DNA of 64,000 nucleotides from Xanthomonas arboricola pv. juglandis. Its GTDB lineage: Bacteria > Pseudomonadota > Gammaproteobacteria > Xanthomonadales > Xanthomonadaceae. Below the pieces are notes generated by a model, which was not told the DNA's origin, did not search any database, and was given only the letters and a program-made list of their open reading frames with translations. The position numbers and the translations under genes are program-made. The DNA is taken from NCBI RefSeq assembly GCF_001013475.1, contig NZ_JZEF01000001.1, positions 124,001 to 188,000 of the forward strand. Reading direction: 5' to 3'. This document shows, one piece after another, positions 40,143-49,981 of this stretch (position 1 is the first letter of the stretch; every line of letters begins with the position of its first letter).

Positions 40143-41014
40143 GGCGGCGATCAAGCTCGTCGCGCATTAGCTGCTGACGCGGCCGCCGCCGGGATTGGGC
40201 ATTCGGGATTGGCATGCGTGGTTGCGTGCCAACTGCTGCCATGTCGTCAGGAATGGTGACGTTCCGAAGGATGTGCAGCTCAGCGGGCGCTCGGTATTTC
40301 TTTCCGCAACCGACAACAACTGGTGGTGCTTGCGCGCGTGCCGGCGTGGGACCTTGAGCGGCATGGATGCCGCGCCAGAGCCTACAGGGACGTACTTGCG
40401 GCGTGTCCCACGCTGGTACGCGTGCAAGCGCCCTCGGCAGACCGAAACATTCGCGTAGAACCGGTAAATGTCGTTCGCAAGATTGATCGGTGCGCGGAGT
40501 TGGTCGGCGGCGCGGCGCCGCATCCAGTGTCGGGACACGCCGTGAATCCATCCTTGGAGGCTCGGTGGCGACATCCATGCCGCCACACGGTCCCGCCCCC
40601 GGACGCGGCACCACGCTCCCAAGATCGCTATCGCTGATCCGCAAGCAATACTTCAAGCACGTGTTGATGCCTGCGGACTTCGTGGCCGATGTAATCAGTA
40701 AGCCATCCATCTGCTGTCACGTCGCCAGGAATGGACGCTCGGAAGAACGTGCAGCTCATCTGGCTGTTCGCATTTCTTTCAGCAACCGACAACAACCGCT
40801 GGTGCAAGCGCCCGCAGCAGACCGAAGCGTTCGCATGGAACCGGCGGAGGCCTTGCACAAGATTGCCCGGTCTGCGGCGCTGGTCGGCAGCGCAGCGCCG
40901 CATCCGGTGTCGGGACACGCCGGGAATCCATCCCTGGAGACTCGCTGGAGGCGCCCGCAGCAGACCTAAGCATTCGCATGTACCGCAATCTCGCAGTCCA
41001 TCGCATCTGTCCGA
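40143..41014. other. Gene-free region with duplicated repeat sequence (872 bases)
   Basis: Lies between the convergent TPR and Old Yellow Enzyme genes. Several open frames exist on both strands but they only translate the repeat and are not supported as genes. GGGATT-type short repeats occur at 40193-40216. Confidence 0.65.
40233..40985. repeat. Imperfect tandem direct repeat, two long copies plus a partial third
   Basis: Copy 1 (about 40233-40572) and copy 2 (about 40711-40953) share the same ordered blocks: CAGGAATGG, GTGCAGCTC, TTTCTTTC.GCAACCGACAAC, CAAGCGCCC, CAGACCGAA, GAACCGG, CGCCGCATCC, GTGTCGGGACACGCCG and GAATCCATCC. Copy 1 carries about 90 extra bases in the middle. A third partial copy of the block beginning GCGCCCGCAGCAGACC starts at 40951. 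Each long copy has the internal dyad GTGTC-GG-GACAC. It looks like a dispersed, non-coding Xanthomonas repeat family. Confidence 0.8.
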
Positions 41015-42115: not shown

Positions 42116-42662
42116 GGAGGGCAACCACCTGAGAAAAAGCAGGGTGCGATCAGACCATGCCCGGCCGCCCTGCAGACACCCTGTCGATGGCACAGCGCGT
42201 TGCATGCGGTGCCGGTTGTGGACAAGCGGGCCCGCCGGCGCAGCGGGCGCCTCCGCTGGCATGGGATGCGCGGTTCCGATCGGTCTGGGCCGGTGTCAGG
42301 CGCGCTCTGCCCGCAAAGCATGACCACCGTTGCGCAGCGGTCGGCGGCTGCATGCACGGCCGAGCCGGCGGCGGACGCCAACCGGCTGCCGTCGCGCCTG
42401 CAATCGTCGCGCCCGTGTGGCAAGGGAACGGGACGGCAGTCATCGCATCTTTGCAGGCGTGGTCGCGCTCACGTTCACCGCGTGCGCCGCAATGTCAAAC
42501 TCTGTCTGGACGTTCCTCTGACCGCTACAGGTTCGTCGCTGGTTGCCGAAACTGAATTGCTTTATTCTGCTGCGCTTCGGCGTGGGGGCGCCGCGCCAGA
42601 TAGGGGGCGCCATCGTCCCGCATGCCCAGCCTTCTCTCTTCTTACTCTCGGCGGGTGATCTC
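42116..42662. other. Divergent region between the OYE and stressosome genes (547 bases)
   Basis: The frame of the RsbR-like gene stays open back to 42543, but the residues there do not look like the family and no good ribosome binding site precedes that ATG. Nothing else recognisable was found; promoters for both divergent units must lie here. Confidence 0.5.
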
Positions 42663-43505
42663 ATGGTGGCATTGCAGCAGCGCTCGATCGATGCGATTCG
42701 TGGCCAGGAAAGTGCATTGTTGGCTGCATGGCTGGGCTCCAGCCTGGGCAGCGATGGACGGATTTCCCGGCAGGACATCGAAACCCAGAGTGCGGACTTT
42801 TTGCATCTGTTGGTCGCTTCCCTGAAGGACGGCGGCAGTAGCCTGGACAGCGCCGACTGGAGCGAGGTACGTCGTTTCCTGGAAAACCTGTCGCGTGACC
42901 GCGCCACCCGCGGCTTCGATTCGCAGGAAACCGCCAACTTCATCTTCTCGCTCAAGCGGGTGCTGTTTGCGCTGGTGCAGCGCGAGTATGCCGATACGCC
43001 TGAGGAGCTGGGCCAGCAGCTGTGGGCGCTGTCCGAGCTGCTGGACCGTCTGGGCCTGTACACCGTCAAGGCGTTCCAGAAGACCCGCGAAGACATCATC
43101 GTGCGCCAGCAGGAAGAAATGCTGGAGCTGTCCACCCCGGTGGTCAAATTGTGGGATGGCGTGCTGGCACTGCCGATGATCGGCACGCTGGATTCGCAGC
43201 GCACCCAGGTGGTGATGGAGTCGCTGCTGCAGCGCATCGTTGATACCGGCTCGGAAATCGCCATCATCGACATCACCGGCGTGCCCACCGTGGACACGCT
43301 GGTCGCGCAGCACCTGCTCAAGACCGTCACTGCGATCCGCCTGATGGGCGCCGACGCTATCATCAGCGGGGTGCGCCCGCAGATCGCGCAGACCATCGTG
43401 CACCTGGGCCTGGACCTGCAGGGCATCGTCACCAAGGCCAACCTGTCCGACGCGCTGGCGCTGGCGCTCAAGCGCATCGGCGTGACCGTCAGCAAGGCAG
43501 GCTGA
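42663..43505 (+). CDS. RsbR-like stressosome protein (RsbRD N-terminal domain + STAS)
   Basis: 280 residues from Met at 42663. Residues about 1-150 are an all-helical sensor domain of the RsbRD type; 155-275 are a STAS domain. The two phosphorylatable threonines of RsbR are preserved in context: Thr212 in TVDTLVAQHL and Thr244 in AQTIVHLGL. In Bacillus, RsbR and RsbS build the stressosome that holds RsbT until stress. An alternative start at 42543 adds 40 unlikely residues. It is first of six tightly packed genes, one base before the next start. Confidence 0.88.
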   Translation: MVALQQRSIDAIRGQESALLAAWLGSSLGSDGRISRQDIETQSADFLHLLVASLKDGGSSLDSADWSEVRRFLENLSRDRATRGFDSQETANFIFSLKRVLFALVQREYADTPEELGQQLWALSELLDRLGLYTVKAFQKTREDIIVRQQEEMLELSTPVVKLWDGVLALPMIGTLDSQRTQVVMESLLQRIVDTGSEIAIIDITGVPTVDTLVAQHLLKTVTAIRLMGADAIISGVRPQIAQTIVHLGLDLQGIVTKANLSDALALALKRIGVTVSKAG

Positions 43506-43506
43506 C

Positions 43507-43869
43507 ATGGAGCGCATCCCGATCCTGCGGATGGGCGACCTGCTGCTGGTCACCATCCAGGTGGACATGCACGACCAACTGGCGATGACGCTGCAGGAAG
43601 ACCTGTCGGAAAAGATCAGCGCCACCTCCGCGCGCGGCGTGCTGATCGACATTTCCGCACTGGACATCGTCGACTCCTTCATCGGCCGCATGATCAGCAC
43701 CATCTCCGGCTTGGCGGCGATCATGGATGCCAGGACCGTGGTGGTGGGCATGCAGCCGGCCGTGGCGATCACGCTGGTCGAGCTGGGCCTGACCCTGCCG
43801 TCGGTGCGCACCGCGCTCAATGTCGAACGCGGCATGCGCCTGTTGCAGCAACCCGATCGCGATTCATGA
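43507..43869 (+). CDS. RsbS-like STAS scaffold protein
   Basis: 120 residues, a lone STAS domain of RsbS length. The phosphorylation serine is present as Ser57 in DIVDSFIGRM, matching Ser59 of Bacillus RsbS. It begins MERIPILRMGDLLLVTIQVDM, also RsbS-like. Its stop codon overlaps the next ATG (ATGA), indicating coupled translation with the kinase that should phosphorylate it. Confidence 0.92.
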   Translation: MERIPILRMGDLLLVTIQVDMHDQLAMTLQEDLSEKISATSARGVLIDISALDIVDSFIGRMISTISGLAAIMDARTVVVGMQPAVAITLVELGLTLPSVRTALNVERGMRLLQQPDRDS

Positions 43870-44261
43870 CCACCGGTTCGCAACCGGTGCGCACCGAACA
43901 GGATGTGGTGCTGGCCCGGCAGACGGTACGCAAGCTGGTGGTGCAGTGCGGCCTGCGTCTGGTCGACCAGACCAAGCTGGTCACCGCAGCCAGCGAGCTG
44001 GCCCGCAACACCGTGATCTACGGCGGCGGCGGCGACATGGATTGGGCCCTGGTGGAAAGCGGCATCCGCAAGGGCGTGCAGCTGACCTTCCGCGACGAAG
44101 GCCCCGGCATACCCGACCTGGATCTGGCGCTCACCGATGGCTGGACCTCCGGCAGCGGACTGGGACTGGGCCTGTCCGGCAGCCGTCGGCTGGTGGATGA
44201 TTTCGTGCTGGACACCGCAGCCGGCAAGGGCACGCGCATCACCATCACCAAATGGAAGTGA
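43866..44261 (+). CDS. RsbT-like switch serine/threonine kinase
   Basis: 131 residues with a compact HATPase_c domain of the anti-sigma-kinase type. Motifs: N box ASELARNTVIYGGGG near residue 43, G1 DEGPGIPD near 77, G2 SGLGLGLSGSRRLVDDF near 98. In Bacillus RsbT phosphorylates RsbR/RsbS and, when released, activates the phosphatase RsbU. There is no RsbU homologue next to it here, so its output partner is probably the following fusion protein or the kinases downstream (inference). It overlaps the next gene by 10 bases. Confidence 0.9.
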   Translation: MTTGSQPVRTEQDVVLARQTVRKLVVQCGLRLVDQTKLVTAASELARNTVIYGGGGDMDWALVESGIRKGVQLTFRDEGPGIPDLDLALTDGWTSGSGLGLGLSGSRRLVDDFVLDTAAGKGTRITITKWK

Positions 44262-45262
44262 TGCTTGCTGGCGAGGTCACGCGCGCGTTTCGCGTCGACG
44301 AAACCAGCCAGGTCGGGCAGGCACGGCGCGAGGCGGCGGCGCTGGCACTGACGTTGGGTTTCGATGAGGCCGCCGGCGGGCGCGTGGCGCTGGTGGCCAC
44401 CGAGCTTGCCACCAACATGGTCAAGCATGGACGTGGCGGCTGGCTGCAGTTGTCCACGGTGGTCACACGTCAGGGCATGGGCGTGGAGATCTGCGCCATC
44501 GACGGCGGCCCCGGGTTCGCACTCGTGGACGGCCTGCGCGATGGCTATTCCACCGCCGGGACGCCGGGCACCGGGCTGGGCGCGATCAAGCGCCAGGCGC
44601 AGGTGCTGGACGCGTATTCCGATGCCAAGGGCGCGGTCGTGATGGCACGGCTGTTCGTGCAGCAACGCGCCGAGCTGGACGTGCCGTACGGCGCCATCCG
44701 TCTGCCGCTGCACAACGAAACGGTATGCGGCGATGCCTGGCATCTGGCGATTGGCGAACAGCGGGCGACCGTCACCGTGATCGATGGCCTGGGCCACGGT
44801 CCCGGCGCTGCCGATGCTGCCGACGCCGGGATGCGCGCTGCAACCACGGCCAGCGGCGAGCCCGGCGAGCGCATCGCGCAGCTGCATGCCGGCATGTCCG
44901 GTACCCGCGGCGGCGCGGCGGCGGTGACGCAATTCGACAGCAGTACCGGCCGGGTGCGCTTTGCCGGTGTGGGCAATATCGTCGCGTCGCTGTGCGATGG
45001 CGACGGCGTGCGTGGCATGCCGTCGCATCCGGGCATCGTCGGGGTGCAGTTTCGCAAGGCGCAGCCGTTCGATTTTCCGGACGCCGCCGGCAAGCTGCTC
45101 ATCATGCACAGCGATGGCCTGCAGTCACGCTGGAACCTGCGCGATCACCCGGGTCTGCTATCGCGCCATCCGCGTCTGATTGCGGCGGTGCTGTTGCGCG
45201 ATTACACGCGAGGCCGCGACGATTGCGGCGTGTTTGTCATGCGGCTGGGAGGCCTGCAATGA
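44252..45262 (+). CDS. Fusion of RsbW-like ATPase and PP2C/SpoIIE-type phosphatase
   Basis: 336 residues. The N-terminal 140 residues are a second HATPase_c domain (VALVATELATNMVKHGRGG; AIDGGPGFALVDG; GTGLGAIKRQA). The C-terminal 180 residues are a PP2C domain of RsbX/SpoIIE kind, with VTVIDGLGHGPGAADAAD carrying the metal-binding Asp/Gly pattern, GTRGGAAAV, MHSDGLQSRW and DDCGVFVMRL. RsbX resets the stressosome by dephosphorylating RsbR and RsbS; here the phosphatase is covalently joined to a kinase-like ATPase. It overlaps the next gene by four bases (ATGA). Confidence 0.9.
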   Translation: MEVMLAGEVTRAFRVDETSQVGQARREAAALALTLGFDEAAGGRVALVATELATNMVKHGRGGWLQLSTVVTRQGMGVEICAIDGGPGFALVDGLRDGYSTAGTPGTGLGAIKRQAQVLDAYSDAKGAVVMARLFVQQRAELDVPYGAIRLPLHNETVCGDAWHLAIGEQRATVTVIDGLGHGPGAADAADAGMRAATTASGEPGERIAQLHAGMSGTRGGAAAVTQFDSSTGRVRFAGVGNIVASLCDGDGVRGMPSHPGIVGVQFRKAQPFDFPDAAGKLLIMHSDGLQSRWNLRDHPGLLSRHPRLIAAVLLRDYTRGRDDCGVFVMRLGGLQ

Positions 45263-46134
45263 ATGCTTCCGGTGCGGCATCGCCGATTGATCCGCTGGCC
45301 GAACTCGACGCGCTGCGGCAGCAGAACCAGGCCCTGCGCGAAGAGTTGGAAGAGACCAACCAGGGCGTGTTGGCGCTGTATGCCGAGCTGGATCAGCAGG
45401 CCGAACAGCTGCGCGACGTGTCCGAGCTCAAGAGCCGCTTCCTGTCGTACATGAGCCACGAGTTCCGCACCCCGCTCAGCTCGATCCTGAGCATCACGCG
45501 GCTGCTGGAAGACGGCATGGACGGGCCGCTGACTGCCGAGCAGTCCAAGCAGGTGCGCTTTGTCAGCGCCTCGGCGCGCGAGCTCACCGAGATGGTCGAC
45601 GACCTGCTGGATCTGGCCAAGATCGAGGCCGGGCGCATCACCATCTCGCCGGGCTGGTTCGACTTGATGGACCTGTTTGCGGCCTTGCGCGGCATGTTCC
45701 GCCCGCTCACCGATGCCGGCAGCACCACCTTGATCTTCGAAGATCCGCCGGTGCTGCCGATGCTCTATACCGACGACAAGAAGCTGGCGCAGATCCTGCG
45801 CAACTTCATTTCCAACGCGCTCAAGTTCACCCCGCAAGGCCATGTGCGTGTGTTCGCGCAGCTGGAAGGCGAGACCCATGTGCGCTTCGGCGTGCAGGAC
45901 ACCGGCATCGGCATTCCGGCCGAGCTTCACGACGCCTTGTTCGAGGATTTTGTACAGGTGGATTCGCCGTTGCAGAAACGCCTCACCGGCACCGGTCTGG
46001 GGCTGTCGATCTGCAAGCGGTTCGCCGAGTTGCTGGGCGGCACGGTGGGGATCAACAGCGTGGTCGGGCAGGGCTCGGAATTTTTCGTGGTGCTGCCGGT
46101 CACGCTGGCAGCGGAGGATGCACTTGGGCAGTAA
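45259..46134 (+). CDS. Soluble sensor histidine kinase of the stressosome operon
   Basis: 291 residues without transmembrane segments. A short coiled coil (about 12-58: QQNQALREELEETNQGVLALY) leads into HisKA with His67 in SYMSHEFRTPLSSI. The HATPase domain has NFISNALKFTPQG, DTGIGIPAEL, and GTGLGLSICKRF. No receiver or other sensor domain is present, so input likely comes by protein contact through the coiled coil. Overlaps the previous and the next gene, supporting one transcript. Confidence 0.92.
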   Translation: MNASGAASPIDPLAELDALRQQNQALREELEETNQGVLALYAELDQQAEQLRDVSELKSRFLSYMSHEFRTPLSSILSITRLLEDGMDGPLTAEQSKQVRFVSASARELTEMVDDLLDLAKIEAGRITISPGWFDLMDLFAALRGMFRPLTDAGSTTLIFEDPPVLPMLYTDDKKLAQILRNFISNALKFTPQGHVRVFAQLEGETHVRFGVQDTGIGIPAELHDALFEDFVQVDSPLQKRLTGTGLGLSICKRFAELLGGTVGINSVVGQGSEFFVVLPVTLAAEDALGQ

Positions 46135-48082
46135 GCCGCACATTCTGGTGGTCGACGACAACGCGGTGACGCGTTATTCGGTGCGCCGCGTGCTCGAACA
46201 TCACCAGTTCGTGGTCGACGAAGCCGGCACCGGCACCGACGGCCTGGCCAAGCTGGCCGAGCAGGCATTCTCTGCGGTGGTGCTGGACGTCAATCTGCCG
46301 GACATGAGCGGCTTTGACATCGTGCGCACGCTACGCGCCGAGCCGCGCACCGCGTTGCTGCCGGTGGTGCACGTGTCGGCGGCATCGATTGCCACCGGCG
46401 ACATGATCACCGGCCTGGAGGCCGGTGCCGACGCCTACCTGATTCACCCGGTCGACCCCAGCGTGCTGGTCGCCACGCTGCGCACCCTGTTGCGTGCGCG
46501 CCAGGCCGAAGACGCCTTGCGTATCAGCGAGGCACGCTTCCGCGAGATCTTCGAGCACATCAGCGCACCGATTGCGGTGGTCGATGCCAGGCTGCACACG
46601 CATGAGGCCAATGCGGCGTTTCAGCGCCTGATCGGTACCGTCACGCCCGGCGAGGCGCTTGCCGTGCCCGGCGTGGACCAGGCCGCCACCGTGCAGGCGC
46701 TGACCGACGCGCTGGCGCAGCGCGAGCGCTGGAGTGGCGCCTTGTCGATCCTGCGCGAGGGCAAGGTGTGCGAAACCGAGTGGCGCGTGTCGCCGTATCG
46801 CGAACCGGATCTGGGCCTGCTGCTGGTCGAGGACGTCACCGAACAGCGCCTGCGCGAGCGCGAGCAGCGCCAGGAACTGGATACCGCCACCACCGAGCTG
46901 GCCCACCAGATCGCCGAGCGCCAGCGCACCGAAATCCAGTTGCTGCAGGCGCAGAAGATGGAAGCGCTGGGCAAGCTCACCGGCGGCATCGCGCACGACT
47001 TCAACAATCTGCTGACCAGCATCATTTCCGGCCTGGACATGATCCAGCTGGCGGTCGAGTCCAACCGCATCGAGCGGGTGCCGCGGCTGGCCGAGATCGC
47101 CACCGGCTCGGCGCATCGCGCCGCCGCGCTGACCCAGCGCATGCTGGCCTTTGCACGCAAGCAATCGCTGGATGCGCAGGCCTTCGACATCAATGCACGC
47201 GTGCGTTCGCTGGAAGACATGCTGCACCGCTCGATCGGCGAGAACATCGTGCTGGAACTGGAGCTGGCGGACACGCCGCTGGTGGCGGTGGCCGATGCCA
47301 ATCAGCTCGAAAACGTGGTGCTTAACCTGGTGATCAACGCACGCGACGCGTTGAAGGGCCGGGGCACCATCCGCATCCAGAGCGCGGCCTATACCGCGCA
47401 AGGCGATCCGGAACTGGACGATGGCGATTACGTGGCGGTGAACGTGATCGACAACGGCAGCGGCATCGAGCCTGCGATTCTCAATCAGGTCTTCGAGCCG
47501 TTCTTCACCACCAAGCCGATCGGCGAGGGCACCGGCCTGGGCTTGTCGATGACCTATGGCTTTGCGCGCCAGTCCGGTGGCACCGCACGCATCACCAGCA
47601 CCGTGGGCCGCGGGACCACGGTGGCCTTGCTGCTGCCGCGCGGGCTCACCGCCAGCGCAGTGCCGCCGGCACCGGCACCGAGTTCGCCCCGTGCCCGCAG
47701 CGAGCGCATCCTGCTGGTGGACGACACCGACGTGGTGCGCATGATGGTGAGCGAGGTGCTCAGCGATGCCGGCTACCACGTGGTCGAAGCCGAAGATGCC
47801 AACGGCGCGCTGGATCAGTTGCGCGCCGGGGTGGAGATCGATCTGGTGGTGTCCGACGTCGGCCTGCCCGGCATGAACGGGCGCGACATGGCCGACGTTG
47901 CGCGCGCGCTGCGGCCCGGCTTGCCGATCCTGTTCATCACCGGCTACGCCGAAAATGCCGCCACCCGCCAGGAATTCCTGGCCGACGGCATGGCGCTGCT
48001 GCCCAAGCCTTTCAGCCTCAACGACCTGCTCAACATGGTCGGGCAGATGCTCGATAGCAGCGTGATCGCCGCCCGCGCCTGA
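46124..48082 (+). CDS. Hybrid histidine kinase (REC-PAS-HisKA-HATPase-REC)
   Basis: 652 residues from the TTG at 46124 (MGSKPHILVVDDN). The GGAGG at 46113-46117 is six bases before this TTG but directly adjoins an in-frame ATG at 46118, which adds two residues if used. Order: receiver 1 (1-120, Asp55 in VVLDVNLPD), PAS (about 135-240), HisKA with His291 in GGIAHDFNNLL, HATPase (NLVINARDAL, DNGSGIEP, GTGLGLSMTYG), C-terminal receiver (Asp578 in VVSDVGLPGMNG). Last gene of the stressosome block; no DNA-binding output domain is encoded here. Confidence 0.92.
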   Translation: MGSKPHILVVDDNAVTRYSVRRVLEHHQFVVDEAGTGTDGLAKLAEQAFSAVVLDVNLPDMSGFDIVRTLRAEPRTALLPVVHVSAASIATGDMITGLEAGADAYLIHPVDPSVLVATLRTLLRARQAEDALRISEARFREIFEHISAPIAVVDARLHTHEANAAFQRLIGTVTPGEALAVPGVDQAATVQALTDALAQRERWSGALSILREGKVCETEWRVSPYREPDLGLLLVEDVTEQRLREREQRQELDTATTELAHQIAERQRTEIQLLQAQKMEALGKLTGGIAHDFNNLLTSIISGLDMIQLAVESNRIERVPRLAEIATGSAHRAAALTQRMLAFARKQSLDAQAFDINARVRSLEDMLHRSIGENIVLELELADTPLVAVADANQLENVVLNLVINARDALKGRGTIRIQSAAYTAQGDPELDDGDYVAVNVIDNGSGIEPAILNQVFEPFFTTKPIGEGTGLGLSMTYGFARQSGGTARITSTVGRGTTVALLLPRGLTASAVPPAPAPSSPRARSERILLVDDTDVVRMMVSEVLSDAGYHVVEAEDANGALDQLRAGVEIDLVVSDVGLPGMNGRDMADVARALRPGLPILFITGYAENAATRQEFLADGMALLPKPFSLNDLLNMVGQMLDSSVIAARA

Positions 48083-48313
48083 CGCGGTTTACGCGCGTAG
48101 GCGCCAGCTGTCGGTGCCTGCGTCTGCCGCGCGACGATGACGACGATGTGCGCGCGCCGCCTCAGGCGTTGACCGCGTCCAATCCAATGTCGAACTACGT
48201 GTGTTTCAGGTGTGCGCTGCCTGTGCCCAACGCGCCGCGTTGCGCGCGCCTGGCTGCAGTGGATGCTTGTCCAGTGCGCCGGCAGCGCCGGCGTGTCATT
48301 GGCGGGCGTGCGC

Positions 48314-49981
48314 TCACTGCGCGTACGCGTAGGGGCCGAACGTGGCACCCAGGAAACCGCCGGCGCTGTCGGTGCTGAGCATGCGGGCATCGCCCTGTTC
48401 CAGCAGCGTCTGCCACTGGCCGCTGCCGACTGCGTAATCCACATGCACGCGTGCGCCATCCAGGGCAAAGCGCAGCGTGACCGGTTGGGTTGCATCGGCC
48501 AGCGGCGCGCGCGCCAGCACGGTGCCGCTGCCTGGCTCCTGCGTCCCGGCGCGGCGCGACAGCACCACCGACATGCCAGCATCCTCGCGCACCAGCAGTA
48601 AGGCCAGGTAATGCGTTTCCCTGGCGACGATTGCCAGCCCGGCCTGTTCGCCCGCTGCCAGCGTGCTGCCATCGACGGTCGCCGCCAGCGTGGCGTGGTG
48701 ATGCTGCAGACGGTGGCCCAGATACGCCGGCTGCCCGCGGCCGATATCGCCCAGCGCCACGCTCGAGGGCGTGATGCGCAGACCCTGCGGGCCGGTGACA
48801 TACCACGGCGTCGTTGGCGGATGGATGGTCATCCATTGCATCGGCACGCGTGCGTCCTGGAAATGCTCGCTCCACTGCATCGGCCCGCTGGTGGGTGCGT
48901 CTTGCGTGCCTGCCGGTAGCGGCGGGCGCGTGGCGACCGCAGGCACTGCCGTGCCGTGCGGCAATATCACCGGCCAGCCGTCGCGCCACTGCACCGGCAG
49001 CAGGAAGGTTTCGCGACCCAGGGTGTAGTGGTTGCCTTGATACGGGCGGGTGGCCAGGAATACCGCCCACCAGGAGCCGTCCTGCAATTCGACCAGTTGC
49101 GCGTGACCGGCGGAGGTGATCGGCGCGCTGCGGCTGGGGTCCAAATCGCGCTGGGTCAGCACTGGATTGCCGCTCCAGGGCTGATATGGCCCGGCGATCT
49201 GGCGGCTGCGGTAGATCATCTGTGCATGCTGCTCGCCGGTGCCGCCCTCGGCTGCGGTCAGGTAGTAATAGCCATCGCGGCGGAACAGATGCGGGCCTTC
49301 GATATGCTCGGGGTTGCTGGCAGGTTGGAAGCCCGCATCCACCAGCACCTGGCGCGTGCCGACCAGTTTCATGCTGGCCAGATCCAGCCGCTGCAGCCAG
49401 ATCGCGCGGTGCCCGTCGTAACGCAGCTTGCCGGCCGGCACATCGTTGTTGACCAGCCAGGCGCTGCCGTCGTCGTCGAAGAACAGCGATGGGTCGATGC
49501 CCTTGGCATCCAGCCAGATCGGGTCCGACCAGGGCCCGGCCGGGTCCTTGGCGGTGATCAGGAAATTGCCGTAATCGCAGTAGAAACAGGTGTTGGCGAT
49601 GTAGAAGGTGCCGTCGTGGTGGCTGATGCTGGCGGCGAACAGGCCGCGGGTGAGTTCGTCGTTGCCGTATTTGATTTGATCAGGGCGATCGATCGCGTTG
49701 CCGATCTGCGTCCAGTGCACCAGATCGCGGCTCTTGAACACCGGCAGGCCGGGGAAATAGCCGAAGCTGGAGTTGACCAGATAGAAGTCGTCGCCCACGC
49801 GGACCGCCGAGGGGTCCGGATGGAAACCGGCCACGACCGGGTTGCGGTACTGCGCCGCGGTCGGTACCGGGCCGCCATCATCGCCCTGGTAGTCGATCCG
49901 GCTGATCACCGCGCTGCCGGCCTGCGCCAGCTGACAACTCACCGCGGCCAGTACGCCCGCCATCCATCCAAGTCGTTTCAA
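48314..49981 (-). CDS. Secreted glycoside hydrolase family 43 (beta-xylosidase / arabinofuranosidase type)
   Basis: 555 residues from a TTG start at 49979-49981 (MKRLGWMAGVLAAV), preceded by gaggg; an ATG at 49963 would cut the signal peptide short. Signal peptide ends near QLAQAG. The five-bladed propeller (about 40-330) has the three GH43 acids in place: Asp56 in GFHPDPSAV, Asp163 in GIDPSLFF and Glu228 in EHIEGPHLF. The C-terminal 200 residues form a beta-sandwich as in GH43 xylosidases. Probable role is release of xylose or arabinose from plant hemicellulose, in the periplasm or outside. Divergent from a TonB-dependent receptor. Confidence 0.92.
   Translation of the reverse strand: MKRLGWMAGVLAAVSCQLAQAGSAVISRIDYQGDDGGPVPTAAQYRNPVVAGFHPDPSAVRVGDDFYLVNSSFGYFPGLPVFKSRDLVHWTQIGNAIDRPDQIKYGNDELTRGLFAASISHHDGTFYIANTCFYCDYGNFLITAKDPAGPWSDPIWLDAKGIDPSLFFDDDGSAWLVNNDVPAGKLRYDGHRAIWLQRLDLASMKLVGTRQVLVDAGFQPASNPEHIEGPHLFRRDGYYYLTAAEGGTGEQHAQMIYRSRQIAGPYQPWSGNPVLTQRDLDPSRSAPITSAGHAQLVELQDGSWWAVFLATRPYQGNHYTLGRETFLLPVQWRDGWPVILPHGTAVPAVATRPPLPAGTQDAPTSGPMQWSEHFQDARVPMQWMTIHPPTTPWYVTGPQGLRITPSSVALGDIGRGQPAYLGHRLQHHHATLAATVDGSTLAAGEQAGLAIVARETHYLALLLVREDAGMSVVLSRRAGTQEPGSGTVLARAPLADATQPVTLRFALDGARVHVDYAVGSGQWQTLLEQGDARMLSTDSAGGFLGATFGPYAYAQ

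Follow-up and report, generated by a model that had tools for sequence, protein, structure and literature searches.

A conserved coil ahead of a histidine kinase in the stressosome operon of Xanthomonas arboricola, a candidate docking site for RsbT

A 64,000-nucleotide stretch of the Xanthomonas arboricola pv. juglandis genome (the window; positions 124,001 to 188,000 of contig NZ_JZEF01000001.1, assembly GCF_001013475.1) carries at 42663–48082 an operon of six genes, encoding proteins like RsbR, RsbS, RsbT and RsbX (R, S, T and X), a soluble histidine kinase (HK) and a hybrid kinase. HK contains a conserved coil motif, ExxxTNxGVxALYxEL, located at residues 29 to 44 (45343–45390, forward strand) just N-terminal of the His domain. 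We define this coil here, from sequence, as a motif that appears distinct from RsbU_N, is found in the protein encoded directly after X and marks an R-S-T-X-coil output group. It is a putative docking and clamp site for RsbT. A literature search, confined to papers open without subscription and not made with the motif letters, met neither this motif nor its distribution nor the RsbT-paralogue fusions described below.

HK (45259–46134, forward strand) is made up of the coil, HisKA and HATPase_c; its phospho-acceptor is His67 (45457–45459). About 57 residues precede HisKA, and a Pfam scan of the protein (E ≤ 0.001) located HisKA and HATPase_c only, with neither a sensor domain nor RsbU_N. Seven coil columns are invariant across 20 diverse sequences. 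In 30 non-redundant kinases, a set that had been filtered by the coil motif itself, residues 28 to 46 have a mean identity of 0.81; the H box reaches 0.77 and the remainder of the kinase 0.63. The motif is also present in all 77 kinases adjoining X within 80 loci drawn by RsbT similarity, a set chosen without the motif. These are the best 80 of 415 loci and hence rich in near relatives; they span Xanthomonas, Stenotrophomonas, Pseudoxanthomonas, Dyella, Luteibacter, Pseudomonas, Stutzerimonas, Burkholderiales, a planctomycete metagenome-assembled genome (MAG) and Actinomycetes. In our reading of the heptads, L30, V37, L44 and L51 would occupy position ‘a’ and L26, T33 and L40 position ‘d’, with E29, N34, G36, Y41 and E43 flanking the core. 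The conserved Thr at a core position and the conserved Gly would thus interrupt a strong coil, giving what may be a weak coil whose outer face is conserved. The motif occurs as a tandem pair in the Actinomycete kinases L104, L113, L115–L117, L172, L173 and L188; in L104, L113 and L115–L117 a degenerate ATPase-like domain lies ahead of the tandem.

The coil is closely linked to RSTX operons. Of 398 genomes drawn evenly from the phylum, 17 were matched by a 41-residue coil query ending before the HisKA domain, and the 16 non-self matches all lie beside X in R-S-T-X operons. In an even sample of 246 genomes from the Streptomyces phylum, profile A2 matched 9; one is the centre genome, and the coil genes of the other eight all have R, S, T and X alongside. 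Both even samples together thus place 24 of 24 matches beyond the starting genomes in R-S-T-X operons. The planctomycete sample gave a single match in 119, the already known genome. RsbT matched 104 records of a plasmid collection; of the 13 loci opened among these, seven carry the coil, and those without it are from Paraburkholderia (L184), Lysinibacillus (L185), Vibrio (L186), Phaeobacter (L187), Listeria (L191) and Salipiger (L192). Signalling helices commonly precede HisKA domains and the hybrid kinase has a PAS domain of its own, so the coil could be a mere conserved dimerisation helix, with the kinases answering their own signals and the operon merely co-expressing them. We consider this very unlikely, given the 24 of 24 linkage, the lack of any other sensor domain in the Pfam scan of HK and the occurrence of the coil ahead of phosphatases as well as kinases.

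The same linkage is seen among close relatives. RsbS is present in 43 of 297 family genomes, and profile A2 matches the same 43. Among the same-genus genomes shown, 17 of 18 (our own included) are RsbS-positive, G265 being negative. The full R-S-T-X-HK-hybrid order is kept in 39 of 42 fetched family loci, our own genome excluded: 36 have the exact pattern, and 3 have one or two additional domain-bearing frames alongside. Two of the incomplete loci (L229 and L234) are truncated where their contigs end. The third (L208, from the same-genus genome G175) is a decaying operon in which the X and HK frames are disturbed. In G161 the coil and RsbS are on separate contigs, and the coil kinase comes after a PP2C piece at the contig end. 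A first-pass annotation of this DNA, made from the letters alone, had looked to conserved linkage of rsbRST with both kinases in relatives and had named its absence as evidence against the system; since the order holds in 39 of 42 loci and RsbS and the coil share the same 43 genomes, the kinases are co-conserved. More widely, an automatic domain tally finds the six-gene layout in 66 of the 80 RsbT-drawn loci. A 29 kb circular ‘plasmid’ record of Xanthomonas vasicola (pXVH29, L183) also carries the operon with window-like neighbours (a TPR gene and thioredoxin), which raises the question of whether it is an excised or misassembled piece of chromosome.

What lies on either side of the coil may point to its partner. 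It precedes HisKA kinases, a hybrid-type kinase (L144, L147) or a PP2C phosphatase (L161, L177 and L179 by profile; L181 by annotation). A GHKL ATPase is fused ahead of the coil in Deinococcus, in Sphingomonas and in several further members of the Pseudomonadota; the motif is present in nine of twelve fused proteins (L143, L144, L146–L148, L150, L180, L182 and L189). In a tree of ATPase domains, all 12 kinase-fused ATPases fall into a single clade (99/94), which a 100/100 branch places with RsbT and apart from the X ATPases; the alignment has few columns (128) for its 72 rows, a stray Streptomyces sequence (L104_T2) sits on a long branch among the X rows and the fused domain of L184 is itself a long branch. 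Derivation of the fused ATPase from X was considered and is unsupported by this tree. Consistent with an RsbT-type origin, the fused ATPases of L146 and L148–L150 score 96–107 bits to the RsbT profile vs 60–76 to the X profile. The fused domains of Actinomycetes score weakly and look degenerate. At residue 32, RsbT has Leu in 24 of 25 coil-class rows vs Thr in 6 of 6 others; kinship was not controlled in this comparison, and we regard residue 32 as a lead only for a class-specific position.

X has an ATPase domain too, and this domain rather than RsbT could sit on the HK coil, X then both resetting the stressosome and holding the kinase. An ATPase-bearing X is found in almost every coil locus and is absent from the coil-less Vibrio, Listeria and Lysinibacillus controls. 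We nevertheless think this arrangement unlikely: the fused ATPases that precede coils cluster with RsbT by tree and by score, and an ATPase-bearing X is also found at loci that lack the coil (L062, L107, L110, L184, L187 and L192). A different possibility is that RsbT transiently phosphorylates HK, for example at coil Thr33, rather than clamping it, as Heinz et al. suggested for Vibrio (PMC9237108). RsbT is a Ser/Thr kinase and Thr33 is invariant in the aligned coils, but N, G, A, L and E nearby are just as invariant in that set, beyond what a phosphosite needs. The permanent ATPase–coil fusions also point to a stable contact, and in Actinomycetes the motif persists although the fused domains look degenerate. 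Transient phosphorylation therefore seems to us decidedly unlikely.

We favour, with a little better than even confidence, a reading in which RsbT freed from the stressosome acts on HK through the coil and switches HK on, because of the conservation of the coil, its close linkage to RSTX operons and the fusions. The parts, their conserved order, the coil, its RSTX linkage and the RsbT-paralogue/coil fusions are established at the level of sequence. We infer every biochemical step, docking above all. Without stress, the RsbR/RsbS particle would hold RsbT. When RsbR senses stress, RsbT would phosphorylate Ser57 of RsbS and the RsbR sites, then depart. Free RsbT would bind the metastable coiled coil of HK (residues 29 to 44) and zip HK into an active dimer, a step modelled on RsbT binding to the RsbU linker in Bacillus subtilis. 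HK would then phosphorylate the hybrid at REC1, the signal would travel onward through the kinase core and REC2 of that protein, and the PP2C domain of X would reset RsbS and RsbR.

Several observations weigh against this reading, besides the motif-filtered set used for the identity values. The RSTX-type loci L184, L187 and L192 have an ATPase fused to a kinase without the motif, so the pairing of RsbT-type ATPase and coil is not obligatory. Three of the 80 RsbT-drawn loci (L062, L107 and L110) lack a coil protein next to X. Two of their genomes were searched, those of L062 and L107, and each carries a coil protein elsewhere (L160, in a second complete RSTX operon, and L161, alone and before PP2C, respectively). 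L161 is thus one coil protein that sits apart from any RSTX operon. It consists of an ATPase-like remnant, the coil and PP2C, and the L107 RSTX operon in the same genome has no adjoining coil gene. In four of eight Actinomycete coil proteins (L174, L175, L176 and L178) profiles found no output domain. An AlphaFold model of the Actinomycete fusion L117 shows an ATPase-like part and a single helix (147–251) running through the motif; its predicted template modelling score (pTM) is 0.43, it yields no domain placement or docking, and its list of structural matches is taken up by kinase cores. PMC9237108 reports that no interaction between RsbT and VvD1 was found in Vibrio vulnificus; the one mapped Vibrio locus (Vibrio sp. 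THAF191c, L186) has no coil, which softens this counterpoint. Finally, REC1 has His at the usual Lys position in 73 of 74 scored hybrids (85 proteins, 11 unscored), and because of this replacement it is uncertain that REC1 responds as a normal receiver.

The hybrid (46118–48082, forward strand, starting at ATG 46118 or TTG 46124) has the architecture REC1-PAS-HisKA/HATPase (CckA-like)-REC2, its HisKA match being weak and below the Pfam cut-off. The window protein retains D57 (REC1), His293 and D580 (REC2), numbered from 46118. The next domain-bearing gene after the coil gene starts with REC in 73 of 75 scorable RsbT-drawn loci, in 14 of 16 Pseudomonadota coil loci and in five of seven coil loci from the plasmid collection. 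In Actinomycetes this is so in just two of eight coil loci, mostly with no such gene found. REC-first partners have the architectures REC-HK-REC, REC-PP2C and REC-HK. An output of the SigB type was sought among the six genes by ORF (open reading frame) map and Pfam and was not found; the set RsbU, RsbV, RsbW and SigB is not in the operon. The first-pass annotation is right on this point for the operon but not for the genome, which has a second partner-switch set near 855700 of contig C2 (L001), read by eye as PP2C, an RsbW-like ATPase and an anti-anti-sigma STAS protein. Its further statement that the signal must leave by phosphorelay is accordingly too strong, and cross-talk of the operon with this separate PP2C/RsbW-like/RsbV-like set is possible.

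The operon itself, with its overlaps and one-base gap, is present as first described, by ORF map and Pfam. All six genes are on the forward strand. RsbR (42663–43505) is a co-antagonist-like protein with an RsbRD_N sensor-type N domain and STAS, matching Vibrio RsbR (E 7e-33) and Listeria RsbR (E 9e-32) in the PDB. It is followed after one base by the STAS antagonist RsbS (43507–43869; Listeria RsbS, E 1e-30) and, with a 4-base overlap, by the RsbT-like switch kinase (43866–44261, HATPase_c), which keeps the ATP-binding motifs of a GHKL kinase, SELARN (N box) and DEGPGI. X (44252–45262; HATPase_c_2 and SpoIIE) is an RsbX-like PP2C phosphatase that also bears a GHKL ATPase domain at its N terminus; its gene overlaps rsbT by 10 bases, and the protein matches PDB entries 3zt9 and 3w40 (RsbX). 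HK overlaps X by 4 bases, and the hybrid overlaps HK by 11–17 bases, depending on its start. A promoter scan of 42200–48700 gave a single weak match, within rsbR. Upstream of the operon, at about 40490–40960, ORF translations suggest an imperfect direct repeat. We judge it very probable, from the sequences, that the module is a stressosome-type RST(X) system.

The putative phosphosites were located by a gapless alignment of the window RsbR to the Listeria RsbR chain of 7b0u, whose numbering is assumed to agree with that of L. monocytogenes RsbR1. In PMC7705745 the sites are T175 and T209 in RsbR1 and S56 in RsbS. T212 of the window protein (43296–43298) aligns with Listeria position 209, equivalent to B. 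subtilis T205. Listeria position 175 (B. subtilis T171) corresponds to Ser178 (43194–43196), and all 21 aligned RsbR sequences have Ser there and none Thr. T244 (43392–43394) is an invariant Thr at Listeria position 241, outside the two sites that this paper names for RsbR1. RsbS Ser57 (43675–43677, in DSFI) occupies the DSF-serine position in an alignment to Listeria RsbS. The key sites first proposed hence stand for T212 and Ser57 and not for Thr244, the classical second site being Ser178. A Ser there could still be phosphorylated, and we do not take the change from Thr as disqualifying RsbR from stressosome membership. Haem sensing by RsbR was considered and rejected; the sole His of the N domain (H48) is not conserved among the 21 sequences and the domain is RsbRD_N.

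Gram-negative stressosomes beside two-component genes had been called known and this exact gene order not known to be characterised; the association is indeed already described (PMC9237108, PMC10014275). According to Heinz 2022 (PMC9237108), RSTX modules, in a set selected by haem-globin RsbR, have many downstream types including HisKA/REC proteins, and RsbU_N was undetected in the majority. Mutants of RSTX and D1 have been studied in Vibrio (PMC10014275). V. vulnificus rsbRSTX with VvD1/VvD2 resembles the window in having RsbR, RsbS, RsbT and an RsbX-type phosphatase immediately followed by two-component genes, with no SigB. It differs in its haem-globin RsbR and single-domain X, where the window has an RsbRD_N sensor and an ATPase-PP2C X; the coil is absent at L186, whereas the window has coil-HK and REC-PAS-HK-REC. 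In B. subtilis, RsbT is reported to act by inducing coiled-coil formation in the RsbU linker (PMC12143880). The same paper notes kinases bearing RsbU_N in rsbT operons. A released switch kinase on the coiled-coil linker of a dimeric effector is thus reported there and proposed here, although RsbU is a PP2C that carries a dimerisation domain at its N terminus and the window effector is a histidine kinase without Pfam RsbU_N, its coil having a motif of its own. The Deinococcus radiodurans operon on MP1, DR_RS15570-15595 (L180), has the same coil and the R-S-T-X-kinase-kinase order; there, unlike in the window, an RsbT-paralogue domain precedes the coil, REC follows the kinase core and the second kinase is REC-HK with neither PAS nor a second REC. 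Its kinases are taken, by gene order, to be DR_B0028 and DR_B0029, noted with an anti-sigma system in PMC6501615, where DR_B0028 is among the regulators higher in recovery from vacuum. In Xanthomonas campestris, of the same genus as the window, RsbR is reported to be expressed and phosphorylated at the shift to stationary phase (PMC9237108, citing Musa 2013).

The gene association is therefore known in kind; what may be new is how the link works, through the motif, its distribution and the RsbT-paralogue fusions. We give even odds to a broader reading, in which the coil serves stressosomes as a transferable output plug in Pseudomonadota, Actinomycetota, Deinococcota and the planctomycete MAG. 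One and the same RsbT-type switch would then control HisKA kinases, hybrid-type kinases or PP2C phosphatases, depending on which of them follows the plug, and in some lineages the RsbT-type partner would have become permanently fused to the plug. If true, it would be a second docking solution beside RsbU_N. The question addressed is how stressosomes without RsbU or SigB transmit their signal, and a named 16-residue motif makes that question directly testable. If the coil contact is confirmed, Ser/Thr partner switching and His-Asp relays would be coupled at a single defined point in genera that include Xanthomonas, Pseudomonas, Stutzerimonas and Deinococcus.

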